A model generated the notes under the pieces. That model saw only the letters and a program-made list of their open reading frames with translations. It had not been told where the DNA came from and searched no databases. A program made the translations under genes and the position numbers. From Dyadobacter fermentans (lineage in GTDB: Bacteria; Bacteroidota; Bacteroidia; Cytophagales; Spirosomataceae): 64,000 nucleotides of DNA. Below, in pieces: positions 2,711-38,795 of the stretch. The stretch covers positions 434,001-498,000 of the forward strand of contig NZ_JAHXBN010000011.1 in the NCBI RefSeq assembly GCF_019924045.1, given 5' to 3'. Position 1 is the first letter of the stretch. Every line of letters begins with the position of its first letter.

Positions 2711-3154
2711 TTATTTCACAATCACCCCATCGGCAATAAACGTCAGTTCATCCTTCGGCTCGGTGATTTTCGCTATTTCCTCCTTACTCTTGCCTGCGTC
2801 CTGCGCATAGTGCTTCAAATGCTCCACGGGCACTGTCGTTTTCTTGGCTGCTCCTTCAAAAACCACCGTTTTACCGGCAATATCTTTGGGCACAAAAAAC
2901 GCGTAGTCTTTAAAAACCACCCGCATGGTTTCGCCATTATCGAGGTTAACCTTCATCCAGCAGCCCTTCACCTGGCAAACCGATTCCACTGTACCGACCA
3001 CTTTCGCCTGTATTTCAGCCTTGTCGCCCATCTTAGCTGGAAGCGCCGTGGCCGCAATCGCCTTTTTATCATCAATCTGTTTGCCAAAATTTTCCTGAGC
3101 TCTGGCGAAAGACATGCTCAGAACCACCAGGATTATTGAAAGGAGCTTTTTCAT
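2711..3154 (-). CDS. DUF4920 domain protein, exported
   Basis: A 147-residue periplasmic or surface protein with a clear signal peptide (MKKLLSIILVVLSMSFARAQ). The rest matches DUF4920, a small beta-rich OB-like family found in Bacteroidota: a K-V-V-G-T-V segment, the CQVKGCWM motif with two cysteines five apart, and a DYAFFVP block. The motif resembles metal-binding or redox sites, but no function is established for the family. It is separated from the large secreted protein upstream by 75 bp that hold a plausible promoter of its own, so it may be transcribed independently. Confidence 0.8.
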   Translation of the reverse strand: MKKLLSIILVVLSMSFARAQENFGKQIDDKKAIAATALPAKMGDKAEIQAKVVGTVESVCQVKGCWMKVNLDNGETMRVVFKDYAFFVPKDIAGKTVVFEGAAKKTTVPVEHLKHYAQDAGKSKEEIAKITEPKDELTFIADGVIVK

Positions 3155-3192
3155 GATGTTAATGTTTAAAAGTGTGTTTCAATAGGTTGGTT

Positions 3193-3222
3193 TAAAGTTA
3201 ACACCTCCCGCAATACAATCAA
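3193..3222 (-). promoter_or_regulatory. Bacteroidota-type promoter for the DUF4920 gene
   Basis: Read on the minus strand, TTG (3220-3222) is followed after 19 bp by TAACTTTA (3193-3200), one base off the TAnnTTTG -7 consensus. It lies 39-68 bp upstream of the start codon at 3154, a usual leader length. Sequence match only. Confidence 0.45.
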
Positions 3223-3229
3223 AACCATC

Positions 3230-6200
3230 CTATTCCAACACTTCAACCCAACCTTTGCAATGATTCCCCTGCGGTGTATCGACGACGTAGAGGTATGTGC
3301 CATTGGCAATGCCTTTCCCCCAATTGTTCTTATAATCGGCCGATTTGAAAATGGATTTGCCCCAGCGGTTGAAAACTTCCAGCGACGATGAAGCGACGGG
3401 CACGATGAAAAAATCGTTCTTCCCGTCGCCGTTCGGGGTGATGACGTTGCTTAAAGTAAATGCAGGTTCCGCACTGATCTTTTTGGAAACCGTAAGCGAG
3501 CAACCGGTTGCATTATAGGCTGTCAGGGTAATAGTATATTCCCCCGGAACTTCATAAATGTAGTTTTTAACTTCCGGGCCGGTCACCGGGTTACCCGTAC
3601 CCATATTCCATTCATAGCGCTGCGCTTTGCCGGTTTTGTTCGTTAATGAATAGGAAAACGGCTCGTTACATGCCCCACCCGATTGCGTTACCTCGAAATC
3701 CGGGGCGTAGGATTGGTCAACTTTCACTGTGATTTCGCGAAGCGGGCGACAGCCGTCTTCATACAGCCCTTCGATCACGTAAGTCGTGGTTTGCGCCGGC
3801 TTTACGGTCACCGACTTCCCGATTGTTTCTTCCAGACCCGTGGTCGCATGCCATTTGTATTGCGGGGCATTACCCGAAACGGTCAGCGTCACGGTGGCGC
3901 CCTGGCATACCTCGGTATCAGGCATGTCGATGAAGTCTGTCTTTTTCTCGACATCCAGTTTAACTTTTTCCGTCACTTTGCAACCGGCATTATTGCTGAT
4001 TTCAACCGTGTATTCCGTTGTTTCCTTTACCGAAGCAACAGGCGTCGCGATGGCCGCGTTATCCAGTCCCGTTGCCGGCGACCACTTATATTGCGTGCCG
4101 CCGCTGGCACTCAGCTTCACGATGCTGTTTTCGCAGACCGTTGTGTCACCCGTTACTTTTGTCGCTAATGTTTCTACGACAACCTTCTTTTGAGCCACAT
4201 CCATTCGCTTGCAGCTCAACCGGTTGTATGCTGTGAGCGTGACCGTGTATTCGCCCGGGTTGGTAAATGCATATTCCGATTGCCCCTCATCTCTCGAAAT
4301 CGTATTTCCGTTGACCTCCCAGATGTAATCCACCCCACCTTCGCTAGTGTTCACGAATGTCAGTTCCAGGGGTGCACAGCCGCGGAGCACATCCTTAGTT
4401 TGGCCATTATAGACGTCAAAATCCGCTTTTAACCGGTCGATATCGATCTTAAAAGCCGCGTTATTGCAGTTATCGCTGTTGTTGGTTTCAGACCAGGCCT
4501 GTGGTGTTGTCGGGAAATGGCTGCCTCCGCAGGCGCAGGTAGCGTGGTAGATCATCCCGTTTTTATCAAACCGGCTTGTTCCGCCATCCACGTGGTCGCC
4601 TTGCAGCCGGGTGTCGCGCGCGAGACTTCCGAAAAACGTTGCGTAGAGCAAGGATTTCGCTCCCTGTTCCAGAATGGCAATGTAAAAGTTGTTTCCATTG
4701 GTAGTGGGCTGAATGGCATCTTCGGTAACATGTAAGCCTATGGTACTGCTGGCCGCATTGTTATTGGTACCACTATTCACGTTCCCTCCCCAGCCTGCGA
4801 GGTAAATATTCCCGCATTCACTCACCAGAAAGGCCGTTGGTGAAATATCCGGCGTGCCGCGGCCGGAACCAATAATAGTCGAAAACAGGGTCTGAGTCAA
4901 TGAGGCATTCAATGCGTGCACAAACTGGCCGCTTTTTGGATTCTGGTACACGCCCTGACTTACCGGATAATTGCCTGTCGTGAGCCCATACACATACACC
5001 TGGTTGCTCTGGTCGATATCGAGCAAATAAGCACCATCCTCCTTATCGGTACCGAGGTAAGTCAATGCGGACAGCTGATCGTTCACAAAACGTGCCACGA
5101 AGCCGTCCTCCGTCCCCTTCAATGCAGATTGATAAGCTCCTGTCTTGGTCTGCAAGTTGGCGCTTTGAGATATTCCGGCGACATATACTTCACCATTGGC
5201 AGCGACTTTCAATGAATAGGCCGCGTCCCATTTGTCGCCGCCCAGGTAGGTCGACCACAGCAACTGATCCAGCCCGGCAGAGAATTTCAAAACCACGCCG
5301 TCCTGGCCGCCCGCTACCTTGTTTTGTACAGGATTTTTCAAGGGGAAATTCGCCGAATTGGTGGATGAAACCACATACACCTGGTCGTTTTTATCCAATC
5401 CTATTTCACCCCGAAAGCTGTCTCCATAGTTCCGGATCGTCACATTATTCGTCACACTCACTCCGTCGTTGCCGCTGCCGCCCACAAATGTGGAGCCCGT
5501 AAGCTGATTCCCGGCAGCATTCAGTTTGGAAACAAACAGGTCACTGCCGTTTGTCATTCCGATCCCCGAAATCGGCTCCACACCGGTTCCCCCGCCAAAG
5601 ACGCGTTGAAATGCATTGTCTTTGGTTGGGAAATTTTTGGAAGACGTCGTCCCGAGAATCAGCAGCTCTTTCCGGCTGTTCACGATCAGGCTCGTGGGAA
5701 CGTCGCCGTCGTTGCCTCCCAGAAAAGTCGCATACAGCAAATCAGACCCATCTGGATTGAATTTCAAGATCGAGACATCGACCAAGCCGCCAAATTTGAC
5801 CTGAAATGCCCCGGTTGTCGCGGGGAAATTGGCCCCGAACACCGTACCACCGGAATACAGGTTACCCTCATCGTCATACGTCGCGGTGTGCCCCCAGTTA
5901 TCGGCCACAGAGCCGGAATAAGTTGAAAAGATAAGTTCGGGGTCGATAGTGAGCGGCAATGATTTGTCGTAACCGGAAGGCAGCTCAAAATGTGCGATAT
6001 TATCGTCGGAAATGCGGAATGCCGAAGGAACCTCCATCGCGCGTGCATTGCTGGCCGACTGAAACGAATACGGCTGCGCTTCCCTGATATCCCCCACCGA
6101 AGTTTTGATCACTATCTGCCCCGATTCATTCAGAGAAACCTTTTCCGCGCCTTTGTACTGGAAACTGATCCTGGAAGGATCCGCGCCGGGTTTGACCATG

Positions 6201-11581: not shown

Positions 11582-11620
11582 CATACCGATTAGTCAACGG
11601 CACGTCAAACTTAGATAAAA

Positions 11621-12256
11621 ATGAGCGAGTTAATAAAAAAATTGAACTGGCGTTACGCCGCCAAACGTATGAACGGTCAAACCGTTCCCCAGGAAAAGCT
11701 GGACAATATCCTCGAAGCGATCAAGCTTGCACCATCCTCGGTGGGTTTGCAGCCTTACAATGTGATTGTAGTGGAAAATAAAGAGCTGAGGGACCGGATT
11801 TTCAAAGAGGCTGCTCCTCGTCAGCTGCAAATCCCCGATGCTTCGCATTTGCTGATTTTTGCGGCATGGGACAAGCTGACTTCGCAGCATGTAGATGATT
11901 TTATCAATCTGGTCGCTTCTACCCGCAATGTGAGCCTCGAATCATTAGCGGCTTACCACAACAGCATTAACGGCGGCATCCTCAGCCGTAGCGAGGAAGT
12001 GAATTTCGACTGGGCGGCACGGCAGGCTTACATTGCCCTGGGCCACGGACTGGTGGCAGCGGCAACGGAAGAAGTGGATGCTACGCCAATGGAAGGTTTC
12101 GATTCTGCGAAACTGGATGAAATTCTCGGGCTTCGGGAGAAAGGACTGCGCAGCGTGGTGATCCTGACATTAGGCTATCGTGATCATGAAAAAGATCCCC
12201 TCGCAAATGCGAAGAAGGTCCGCCGCGCGCATGAAGAACTTTTTATCTCCATCTAG
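11621..12256 (+). CDS. Nitroreductase-family NAD(P)H-dependent oxidoreductase
   Basis: A 211-residue FMN flavoprotein of the nitroreductase superfamily. WRYAAKRMNG near the N-terminus provides the phosphate-binding Arg and Lys, APSSVGLQPYNVIVV is the FMN-binding block near residue 37, and GLREKGLRSVVILTLGYR near the C-terminus is the conserved family tail. It resembles YdgI/YodC-type dihydropteridine or quinone reductases, which reduce quinones and nitroaromatics using NAD(P)H. Its divergent HxlR neighbour suggests induction by quinone-like or oxidative electrophiles. No terminator follows; instead the 3' spacer is the 10-bp-periodic array. Confidence 0.88.
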   Translation: MSELIKKLNWRYAAKRMNGQTVPQEKLDNILEAIKLAPSSVGLQPYNVIVVENKELRDRIFKEAAPRQLQIPDASHLLIFAAWDKLTSQHVDDFINLVASTRNVSLESLAAYHNSINGGILSRSEEVNFDWAARQAYIALGHGLVAAATEEVDATPMEGFDSAKLDEILGLREKGLRSVVILTLGYRDHEKDPLANAKKVRRAHEELFISI

Positions 12257-12281
12257 CCTTTTAAGTAACAGGAGGTTGAGA

Positions 12282-12572
12282 GTCAGGTGTGGTCAGGTGT
12301 AGTCAGGAATGGTCATGTGCAGTCAGAGGTGGTCAGAATGGTCAAGTATAGTCAGGAGTGGTCATGTTTAGTCAAGAATTGTCGAGACTATAATGACAAT
12401 ACTTAACAATACCCGACAACGAATGACAACACCTGACAAAAAATGACAATACCTGACAAAAACAACACTCGACTAAAATTGACAATACCTGACAAAAACA
12501 ACACTTGACAAAAATTGACAACACCTGACAACCAATGACCTCCCTCCAAATAAGTTACAATACCGAACAAAC
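12282..12572. repeat. 10-bp-periodic degenerate array with inverted halves (GTCA... / ...TGAC)
   Basis: This fills the 322-bp spacer between the nitroreductase and DsbA-like genes. From 12282 to 12390 there are eleven units of the form GTCAGGTGTA, each starting GTC and spaced 10 bp (one of 9). After a short centre (about 12384-12393) the pattern flips: units of the form GACAATACCT recur at 10-bp steps, with two 16-bp interruptions, to 12540. A decayed unit reaches 12572. The halves are reverse complements in consensus. Near the centre, GTCAAGAATTGTC (12371-12383) matches the reverse complement of 12394-12406 at 11 of 13 bases. A transcript would fold into a long imperfect hairpin. There is no reading frame in it. 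Confidence 0.9.
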
Positions 12573-12578
12573 GATATC

Positions 12579-13286
12579 ATGAAAGTCGAAATATGGAGTG
12601 ATGTAATGTGCCCGTTTTGCTATATTGGCAAAAGGCGCTTTGAGAGTGCGCTGGCGGAGTTTCCGCAGCGTGACCAGATTCAGGTGGAATGGAAGAGCTT
12701 CCAGCTGAATCCGCAGATGAAAACCGAACCGGGAAGAAGCATTAACGACTACCTGGCCGAGACCAAAGGCTGGACGCCAGATTATGCGCAGCAGGTGAAC
12801 GACCACGTCGCGAATATGGCCGCCGAAGTGGGTTTGGAATATAATATGGATAAAGCTGTATTAGCAAATTCATTCGACGCACATCGCTTTTTGCAATTTG
12901 CCAAAACCAAAGGCCTGGGCGATGCAGCGGAAGAGCAATTGTTCAAAGCCTATTTTACGGATGGGCGGAATACAGCCGACCACGACACGCTGATCGAACT
13001 CGGAACGGCCATTGGCCTGGATGCAGCTGACCTGAAAGCCGTTCTGGAAGGTACGCGCTTCAGCGAGGATGTGCGGCACGACATTTACGAGGCGCAGCAG
13101 GTAGGTGCACGCGGCGTTCCGTTTTTTGTGCTCGATCGCAAGTATGCGGTTTCAGGGGCGCAACACACCGAGACTTTTCTCAATGCATTGCAGCAGTCGT
13201 TTGGTGAGTGGGAAAAAGCCAATCCCAAACCACTCGTAAGCCTGGCCGACGGGGCGAACTGCGCCGTCGACGGGGAATGCGACTAA
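12579..13286 (+). CDS. DsbA-family oxidoreductase, FrnE-like
   Basis: A 235-residue thioredoxin-fold protein of the FrnE/2-hydroxychromene-2-carboxylate isomerase branch. The redox motif Cys11-Pro-Phe-Cys14 sits at the N-terminus (SDVMCPFCYIG), the helical insertion spans about 60-165, and the cis-Pro loop is RGVPFFVLD near 178-186. There is no signal peptide, so it acts in the cytoplasm, unlike periplasmic DsbA. Such proteins are thiol-disulphide oxidoreductases or polyketide-related isomerases; the intact CxxC favours redox activity. Two cysteines also occur at the extreme C-terminus (CAVDGECD). Proximity to the HxlR/nitroreductase pair hints at thiol stress, but the repeat array lies between them. 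Confidence 0.9.
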   Translation: MKVEIWSDVMCPFCYIGKRRFESALAEFPQRDQIQVEWKSFQLNPQMKTEPGRSINDYLAETKGWTPDYAQQVNDHVANMAAEVGLEYNMDKAVLANSFDAHRFLQFAKTKGLGDAAEEQLFKAYFTDGRNTADHDTLIELGTAIGLDAADLKAVLEGTRFSEDVRHDIYEAQQVGARGVPFFVLDRKYAVSGAQHTETFLNALQQSFGEWEKANPKPLVSLADGANCAVDGECD

Positions 13287-13305
13287 GGTCTGAAATACGC
13301 ATTCG

Positions 13306-24592: not shown

Positions 24593-24879
24593 AATCAATT
24601 TCTTAATTATATACTATGCTTTTCAGAAAAGGCGGCGCGCATAATAGCTATAATCCTATTTTTACCTTTCATTTTTCTATAAAATCAGTATTTAACCAAA
24701 TTTTAATATAAACTGTCCTGCGCCCGCTGGTACCGCCCTTTTCGCCATTCAAAAACACCAAGCAAAAAATTCATTCACTCACTCCCGTTCCACGGCGGCT
24801 CATTCAATCATTCAGTCATTCGGTCATTCGGTCATTTTTTGGTAACTTTATTTCTTCATCAACTAAAAAAGTAACCGTT
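24593..24879. other. Intergenic spacer between divergent pgk and FAN1-like genes
   Basis: The left half (24593-24720) is AT-rich and shows no gene. The right half carries short repeats (ATTCATTCACTCACTC at 24769-24784, then the 8-bp array) and a weak -7 TAACTTTA (24843-24850) ahead of the TTG start at 24880. No RNA gene or long hairpin is recognisable. Confidence 0.6.
24800..24839 (+). repeat. 8-bp tandem array (TCATTCGG-like), five units
   Basis: Units are TCATTCAA, TCATTCAG, TCATTCGG, TCATTCGG and TCATTTTT, in exact 8-bp register. The array stops 3 bp before a -7-like TAACTTTA, so unit number would change what lies at -33 of the downstream gene. Confidence 0.85.
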
Positions 24880-31191: not shown

Positions 31192-31196
31192 TAGTC

Positions 31197-31305
31197 GGGA
31201 GAAAGGAGGAAAGGGAGGATGGAGGAAAGGGAAATGTAAAAATCCTTTTCTCCCTTCCTCCCTTCCTCCCTTTCCTCCTTTTCTCCCTTCCTCCTTTTCT
31301 CCCTT
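31197..31305. repeat. Polypurine/polypyrimidine foldback at a convergent junction
   Basis: A plus-strand purine tract (31197-31235) is followed by a pyrimidine tract (31245-31306). Bases 31197-31217 pair with 31266-31287 with one bulge, and inner parts pair less well. The pyrimidine side contains an exact 16-bp direct repeat (31274-31289, 31290-31305). It could act as a bidirectional terminator and could form triplex DNA in vitro. Confidence 0.85.
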
Positions 31306-31309
31306 CAAC

Positions 31310-38703: not shown

Positions 38704-38730
38704 AGCGCAAAGTTCAATGCTTATTTCCCC

Positions 38731-38795
38731 AAAACGGCTTTTCCAAAACGGCTTTTCCAAAGCGGCTTCTCCGAAACGGCTTCTCCGAAGCGGGG
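38731..38795 (-). repeat. 14-bp tandem array upstream of the sigma gene
   Basis: Units on plus are AAAACGGCTTTTCC twice (38731, 38745), AAAGCGGCTTCTCC (38759), GAAACGGCTTCTCC (38773) and a partial unit (38787). Each unit is nearly self-complementary (AAAA CGGC TTTT), so stacked small hairpins are possible. It occupies the expected -33 region of the sigma gene. Confidence 0.85.

Follow-up and report, generated by a model that had tools for sequence, protein, structure and literature searches.

The window, a 64,000-nucleotide stretch of a Dyadobacter fermentans contig, carries between two plus-strand genes an array of short units that reverses its sense at the centre. The upstream gene (11621..12256) is nitroreductase-like and the downstream gene (12579..13286) DsbA/FrnE-like, both named by eye; the stop codon of the former ends 25 bp before the first core of the array and the latter starts 39 bp past the last. 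The array itself (12282-12539) consists of 11 GTC-units followed by 14 units in the opposite sense, set at 10-bp steps. Its plus-sense left arm (12282..12384) comprises ten GTCA units, starting at 12282, 12292, 12302, 12312, 12322, 12332, 12341, 12351, 12361 and 12371, and one GTCG unit starting at 12381, with a single 9-bp step from 12332 to 12341. The array centre (12385..12393) separates the final GTC core from the first TGAC core of the minus-sense right arm (12394..12539), whose 14 units are made up of 11 TGAC (12394, 12424, 12434, 12444, 12454, 12480, 12490, 12506, 12516, 12526 and 12536), two CGAC (12414 and 12470) and one TAAC (12404). Two steps in this arm are 16 bp long (12454-12470 and 12490-12506). 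The original prediction, made from the letters alone, had described eleven GTC units at 10-bp steps with one step of 9, a switch to opposite-sense units and two 16-bp interruptions, all of which these coordinates confirm (12282-12381 for the starts of the GTC units, 12394-12539 for the 14 opposed ones), as they do its period near one helical turn and its opposed arms; it had placed the end of the array at 12572, about 30 bp too far, the last core ending at 12539. Just outside the arms lies an outer clamp, AGGAGG on the left (12270..12275, plus strand) and the complementary CTCCCTCC on the right (12540..12547, plus strand), and inside the array there are evident block repeats, 20, 29 and 36 bp long.

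Across the two strands of 12282-12540 there are 15 pairs of GTCA exactly 10 bp apart, whereas 10,000 first-order Markov resamplings gave 0.05 such pairs on average and never more than 2, which excludes chance for the focal array. When the 64 kb were scanned for 4-mers that recur four times with a constant spacing of 5-30 bp, words from the focal array ranked first, and with the array masked the best ten entries had at most two matches each. Elsewhere in the window, between two convergent genes at 31195-31306, lies a second inverted short-unit array, of purine units GGGAGAAAGGAGGAAA followed by pyrimidine units TCCTTTTCTCCCTTCC, which resembles the GTCA array in layout and differs in its letters. 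At 24800-24836 there is a GAATGATT / TCATTCAG microsatellite array of a dispersed type, recurring at L024:7894-8113, L030:3958-4100, L049:2752-2901 and L053:2235-2464; at L053, opposed-sense arrays of this type flank a small GTCA element on both sides. A 14-bp unit, TTCTCCAAAACGGC, is present in about 4.4 intergenic copies at 38725-38793.

Searching the host genome (G000) with the focal array by blastn gave 104 matches, which we grouped by hand into at least 40 places, a lower bound given that 40 of 127 candidates were scored; these were fetched as 39 stretches. A further search, of 39 mixed genomes, matched the array in 21 of 25 Dyadobacter and in none of the 14 from other families of the order. 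The pattern GTCA(N6GTCA)x3 occurred 610 times in the host genome and was present in 35 of 48 Dyadobacter genomes, whose copy numbers ranged from 0 to 610, with 13 genomes free of any match; the reversed-pattern control had zero matches in the same 48. Across the family, 61 of 222 genomes carried the pattern, representing 5 of 36 genera (one genus on a single match), with the reversed control matching once in each of two genomes, and a stricter pattern matched 4 of 395 genomes in a sample of the phylum, the host included, with a control match in one genome. GTCATTNRTD-type arrays were also present in a few other Bacteroidota and in three further genomes of the 395-genome sample. Among the 80 loci listed from a GTDB scan, 11 came from Dyadobacter records and 15 were two-armed, 10 of these in Dyadobacter, while L063 and L119 are plain microsatellites; many of the 65 one-armed loci listed are plain microsatellites of other taxa. 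One of the listed arrays, from Dyadobacter sp. BIN28 (L131), reads by eye as the focal array of G003. The focal array belongs to a dispersed intergenic element with copies in several genera of the family. The original prediction had proposed looking through this genome and its relatives, and had reserved the name of chance expansion for an array found only here with unconserved cores; what the search returned, with at least 40 places in the host, 35 of 48 genomes in the genus and 61 of 222 in the family, is an array that recurs and whose cores are conserved. Two contigs of the host assembly, C131 at its start (L032) and C116 at its end (L052), both break inside a GTCA array; as a single locus in G003 (L243), and likewise in G018 (L255), aligns with the flanks of the two contigs, they probably represent one array. 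Outside the family, opposed GTCATTTGGG / GTCATTAAGG arrays with an inward-facing layout were seen in Saprospiraceae (L057:6980-7400 and L089:6520-6960).

We derived the unit from 702 copies in the host genome, where the bases after GTCA were G at position 6 in 82%, A or G at position 8 in 94% and T at position 9 in 97%, and where position 10 was A, G or T about equally and C in 1%. Six sets of units from three genera had in common RTDGTCA plus three variable bases, with T9 at 92-99%, R8 at 83-97% and C at position 10 at 1-4%; this near-absence of C held even in coupled arms, where a C could find a pairing partner. Positions 5-6 vary by species, being GG in G000 and G003, TT in G040, G217 and G123, and purines in G202 and G209. 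The consensus first proposed, GTCAGGTRTN, is a species dialect; it is RTDGTCA that recurs across genera. In the host, 702 of 787 steps measured 10 bp, and 49 of the other 85 measured 20 or 30. Of the 803 units in the lattice, 747 had an intact core; most of the 56 broken ones (46) carried a single change, and the broken forms included GTCG 14 times, GTTA 11 times and GCCA 9 times. An array of stop codons, with TGA in all frames, was considered and rejected, as the broken cores showed no preference for other stops.

Comparison of copies revealed which of these positions are held. Duplicate copies within an arm (threshold 0.8, 32 blocks) mismatched at 0.7-3.3% of core positions 1-4 and at 3.9% of T9, against 10% at position 6 and 25-38% at positions 5, 7, 8 and 10. 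Orthologous arrays compared between species mismatched at 6-12% in the core, 9.5% at T9, 26% at position 6 and 42-49% at positions 5, 7, 8 and 10, with 14% in the 350-bp flanks. All of these constraint figures are partly conditional, because the search for arrays relied on their GTCA cores and would miss decayed ones. The ortholog set comprised 11 locus pairs (nine from G003, one from G018 and the focal pair), among which L246/L026, with a core mismatch of 27%, raises the mean; the shared G003 locus L243, whose G000 partner is split over two contigs, was excluded. The lattice persists at orthologous sites while its spacers are nearly randomised. The original prediction is thus supported as regards its cores, which are kept, unlike the spacers, in the host genome, at orthologous loci and in three genera.

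A phage origin was rejected, as among the 80 viral loci listed one (L366) was two-armed, with unlike units, and the other 79 had mostly unlike units, often GTCAC. Several phage contigs (L341, L344, L353, L358, L399 and others) carry degenerate 10-bp GTCAC(G/A) arrays, some with GTGAC, which apparently belong to another system; in the viral one-armed arrays L393 and L404 the units, of GTCATTGGTT and GTCATTAGYG type, are similar to those of the TT dialect. Carriage on plasmids was likewise rejected, with no match.

Orientation proved to be nearly invariant. When neighbouring arms of at least three units each were taken within 300 bp, 116 of 117 opposed pairs faced inward, and nine further neighbours were in the same sense. 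The two arms of an element have unequal and uncorrelated unit numbers (rho 0.20, p 0.24, 36 elements), and left arms are nearly C-free and right arms nearly G-free, C making up 2.2% of left-sense spacer bases in G000. Our finder detected seven of 43 G000 arrays as one-armed; two of these (the first array of L048, and L052) are cut by the end of a stretch or contig, three (L033, L042 and L051) have by eye a short or degenerate second arm, and L039 and L041 are truly one-armed. In the latter two, every core of the run was intact (19 of 19 in L039, 18 of 18 in L041), irregular units stood at the outer end, and opposite-sense cores within 400 bp were scattered and numbered six and one, respectively.

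To assess arm coupling we asked, in terms of pairing energy, whether an arm prefers its own partner to partners taken from other loci. Own partners paired no better in G000 over 75 nt (-52.2 vs -53.1; 32 of 36 elements, p 0.74), nor over 150 nt (p 0.80), whole arms (p 0.46), the inner 100 nt (p 0.64) or the outer 100 nt (p 0.49), and the preference was equally absent in G003 and G018 together (p 0.26; 19 of 20 loci), in G040 (p 0.22; 13 of 14 loci) and among nine focal arrays across species (p 0.22). Outside Dyadobacter, own partners were clearly favoured in G217 (-50.2 vs -41.8; 18 elements, 0 of 5000 permutations), G123 (-68.0 vs -58.6; 19 elements, p 0.0002), G202 (-60.2 vs -50.0; 14 elements, 0 of 5000 permutations) and G209 (p 0.017; six elements), and matched changes in both arms were seen by eye in some of these stems, as in L294, where a broken core is paired by its complement. 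Coupling in two related genera (g47 and g23) and none in Dyadobacter point to a hairpin form outside Dyadobacter and to arms that stand apart within it. The long hairpin of the original prediction thus holds insofar as the RNA of 12270-12590 folds strongly (-87.1 kcal/mol, z = -4.7 vs 100 shuffles), but a Dyadobacter arm pairs just as well with the arms of other loci. For the flanks the picture was mixed. By eye, a G-rich left and a C-rich right flank stand outside the focal array in eight of nine array-bearing species, G056 being the exception, and the focal-locus flanks paired better with those of their own species than with those of others (p 0.044, nine species); the own-flank test gave no significant result in G000 (35 elements, p 0.17-0.22) or G217 (p 0.17, 0.26) and varied in G123 (p 0.013, 0.11) and G202 (p 0.23, 0.034).

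To describe placement we used the 43 G000 arrays with at least six units, 40 of which have genes on both sides according to a simple purpose-made gene caller. Twenty-eight lay between tandem genes, 11 between convergent genes and one between divergent genes, compared with 161, 29 and 44 for array-free neighbours (p 0.026 convergent, p 0.009 divergent), and between tandem genes the array stood a median of 20.5 bp from the upstream stop versus 45 bp from the downstream start (p 0.005). Copies therefore sit at gene 3' ends, a placement that the original prediction had marked for checking. The two arms did not differ clearly in size with respect to the direction of transcription (p 0.10). The two-armed elements of g47 and g23 (57 of 60 loci) included 40 tandem, 14 convergent and three divergent placements, as raw counts without a base rate. 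We found no terminator-like site in 12200-12700, in agreement with the earlier view that the array is not a simple terminator. An intrinsic terminator has its T-tract directly behind a G+C-rich stem, and such a tract outside the arms (an 8-mer with at least six T at +1..+18 vs +37..+54) was in no excess in G000 (3 vs 3 of 70 outer flanks). The counts elsewhere were 7 vs 2 of 36 in G217, 6 vs 1 of 28 in G202, 2 vs 0 of 12 in G209 and 1 vs 3 of 38 in G123, a weak excess in g47 only. A role as chromosome-organising sites was rejected, as places were not unevenly distributed in G217 (26 places, p 0.51), G202 (18, p 0.85) or G005 (12, p 0.74); they were uneven in G123 (28 places, p ~0.003, with a 2.08 Mb row dropped as a likely chance match), and the value for G059 (p 0.009) concerns only the places listed and was not used.

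The focal region was matched in all 48 Dyadobacter genomes. Among the 30 species loci examined the two genes are adjacent in 27, nine of which carry the array, and the remaining 18 have 17-82 nt from stop to start inclusive. A two-gene tree fits an array that was gained once, was lost in G054 and G045 and is decaying in G056, where the genome retains two pattern matches; branch support is not shown on this tree and the order among close species is doubtful. Ten of 17 G003 array loci lie at the same place in G000, and the other seven may fall outside the fetched places, so turnover of sites looks slow. The 13 genomes without a match and the lack of the focal array in 18 of the 27 species with the gene pair adjacent indicate that the element's function is not essential.

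A separate element, ATGCCGTNAGGCAT, yielded 87 matches in 52 clusters in our searches, and five of these clusters lie inside GTCA arrays against 0.5-0.75 expected (P 0.0001-0.0009), an expectation that assumes 3000-4500 intergenic spaces. Triple REP hairpins stand between two full arms in the arrays of L024, L031, L048 and L049, and in the L033 array the right arm has only two cores. A RAYT-like Y1_Tnp locus (L318:500-1900) carries seven tandem copies of the ATGCCGTNAGGCAT REP pair with a period of about 214 bp. The exclusion of REP/BIME in the original prediction thus stands for the arrays themselves but overlooks the REP-type hairpins inside five of them.

The directional motif is constrained while the spacers are free, one-armed arrays stay intact, and C is nearly absent from position 10; the best single account of these features is a protein that recognises the motif once per turn of the helix. 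We put it at about an even call that the array is a hairpin-derived intergenic element that now serves chiefly as a directional, helically phased lattice for a putative binding protein. Judging from the constraint, a sequence-specific protein would cover each arm in head-to-tail order, with one subunit for every helical turn, such that two protein filaments would face each other across the array centre, and the pattern fits a head-to-tail operator array. Most likely the effect would be to set adjacent transcription units apart locally, the 3' end carrying a roadblock or an insulator, a role suggested by placement. The element probably began as a short hairpin of the kind still seen in other genera; in Dyadobacter, block duplication of units may have lengthened each arm independently, with chiefly the protein motif retained. 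Against a protein, the C-poor left arms, the G-poor right arms and the outer clamp of the focal locus suit pairing, and a consensus stem could keep GTCA invariant by itself because any arm pairs with any other.

The latter possibility, that the array acts as RNA, is the rival that survives best, although we regard it as somewhat unlikely. Here mRNA 3' ends, or the junctions between operon genes, would carry a long stem tolerant of shifts in register, which would stabilise the upstream message, stop exonucleases or serve as a target of RNase III with no dedicated DNA-binding protein; GTCA would stay invariant because each left unit has to be able to pair with whichever right unit it meets. Such a stem would account for the strong fold, the preference of g47 and g23 arms for their own partners, the placement at gene 3' ends, the complementary flanks of the focal array, the other-lettered inverted array between convergent genes at 31195-31306 and the five REP clusters inside arrays, four of them between two full arms, and it explains better than a protein does why left spacers avoid C and right spacers avoid G. 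However, own-partner preference is absent in Dyadobacter (G000, G003 with G018, G040), where there is also no U-tract; arm lengths are uncorrelated, two one-armed arrays retain their cores, and C is almost missing from position 10 even in coupled arms.

We consider it improbable that the array is a REP-like mobile or selfish repeat spread by a GTCA-recognising transposase, despite the range of 0-610 pattern matches among 48 genomes, which rises with genome size (rho 0.42, p 0.003), a placement resembling that of REPs, and the presence inside five arrays of hairpins of the kind found at the RAYT-like locus. The longest word shared between loci was 37 bases, versus simulated maxima of 26-37 (20 simulations on a subset of arms), and this lack of excess over random unit strings gives no sign of recent copy-and-paste. 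Moreover, 10 of 17 G003 loci keep their place in G000, array counts do not track Y1_Tnp counts (rho 0.21, p 0.15), and stretches of 4.5 and 5 kb at two of the genome's three Y1_Tnp loci contain no GTCA array; on these last two grounds Y1_Tnp was rejected as the driver. Neutral slippage of a short palindrome into a functionless repeat is very improbable, as it would suit the 20-, 29- and 36-bp block repeats of the focal array and the free arm lengths but should not, alone, keep seven of ten positions and the orientation across genera or hold cores below the divergence of the flanks with spacers above it.

Returning to the protein lattice, a bolder form, which we deem unlikely as a whole, would make it a family-wide nucleoprotein boundary in which a pair of filaments, assembled face to face behind gene ends on opposed RTDGTCA lattices, insulate transcription units or bridge the chromosome, the spacer dialect (GG, TT or RR) coevolving with the protein. 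Dispersed bacterial repeats are usually explained by copying, as for REPs and MITEs, or by slippage, as for microsatellites. A directional lattice kept at dozens of sites in several genera, with its spacers replaced and with no visible recent copying, argues instead for the footprint of selection for a binder and not for a sequence. The GTCA lattice is a ready bait for a candidate DNA- or RNA-binding protein, and array-poor or array-free species beside array-rich close relatives, together with one focal array that is decaying, offer natural contrasts; G000, G018, G011 and G003 are rich in arrays, and their close relatives G045, G046, G054 and G056 have few.

Searching Rfam with window 11600-13300 gave nothing above threshold, with two matches far below it (23.5 bits vs 79 and 21.6 vs 84), and among the open-access papers listed, judged by title and start of abstract, no report of such an array family was found. 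CRISPR arrays consist of near-identical repeats of about 20-40 bp with unique spacers between them; with a 10-bp period, 4-7 conserved bases and an inversion, the GTCA array is distinct from these, as the original prediction had maintained. The PhoB box has a TGTCA core and an 11-bp step. BldC occupies 9-bp direct repeats in head-to-tail fashion, and their number varies (PMC5859096). Operators of these two kinds resemble the arms in having directional sites about one turn apart and varying in number, but those described (for BldC, PMC5859096) are promoter-linked and have few repeats, whereas GTCA arrays reach 34 units per arm, have two arms and sit at gene 3' ends.

REP/BIME elements with their RAYTs are likewise dispersed, extragenic, palindromic and present in many copies (PMC2817692, PMC3733652); REPs, however, are palindromes of 20-40 bp with a GTAG or CGTC tag, whereas GTCA units have neither internal palindrome nor tag and their copies are alike only in the unit (PMC3733652). 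The unit is RTDGTCANNN, without the palindrome and tag, and neither alike copies nor a cognate RAYT flanked by the repeat was found, given the lack of excess word sharing and of arrays at two of three Y1_Tnp loci; Dyadobacter and Spirosoma are absent from the main text of both REP papers (PMC3733652, PMC2817692). Similar in some respects are the TAACTGA heptamer direct repeats described from Beggiatoaceae, cyanobacteria and five Bacteroidetes (PMC4679880), which, like cyanobacterial STRR, are short intergenic units, patchy across species and suspected to be binding sites. The TAACTGA unit is an exact 7-bp sequence, mostly upstream of start codons in its main host and arranged in direct and one indirect repeat, whereas the GTCA array has a degenerate 10-bp unit, gene 3' ends and two opposed arms (PMC4679880); the 7-bp unit of STRR and TAACTGA contrasts with a step of 10 in 702 of 787 cases here. 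The P6b stem of the Nostoc tRNA-Leu intron occupies one intron position, within a folded intron and with a 7-nt unit, whereas GTCA arrays occur at dozens of intergenic sites with arms that are uncoupled in Dyadobacter (PMC4476775). Arms complementary beyond the consensus, as in P6b, were absent from Dyadobacter and present in g47 and g23. In the account of PMC4476775, P6b is likewise a stem of degenerate tandem repeats in both arms, with two motif classes, and one arm alone may gain or lose a repeat.
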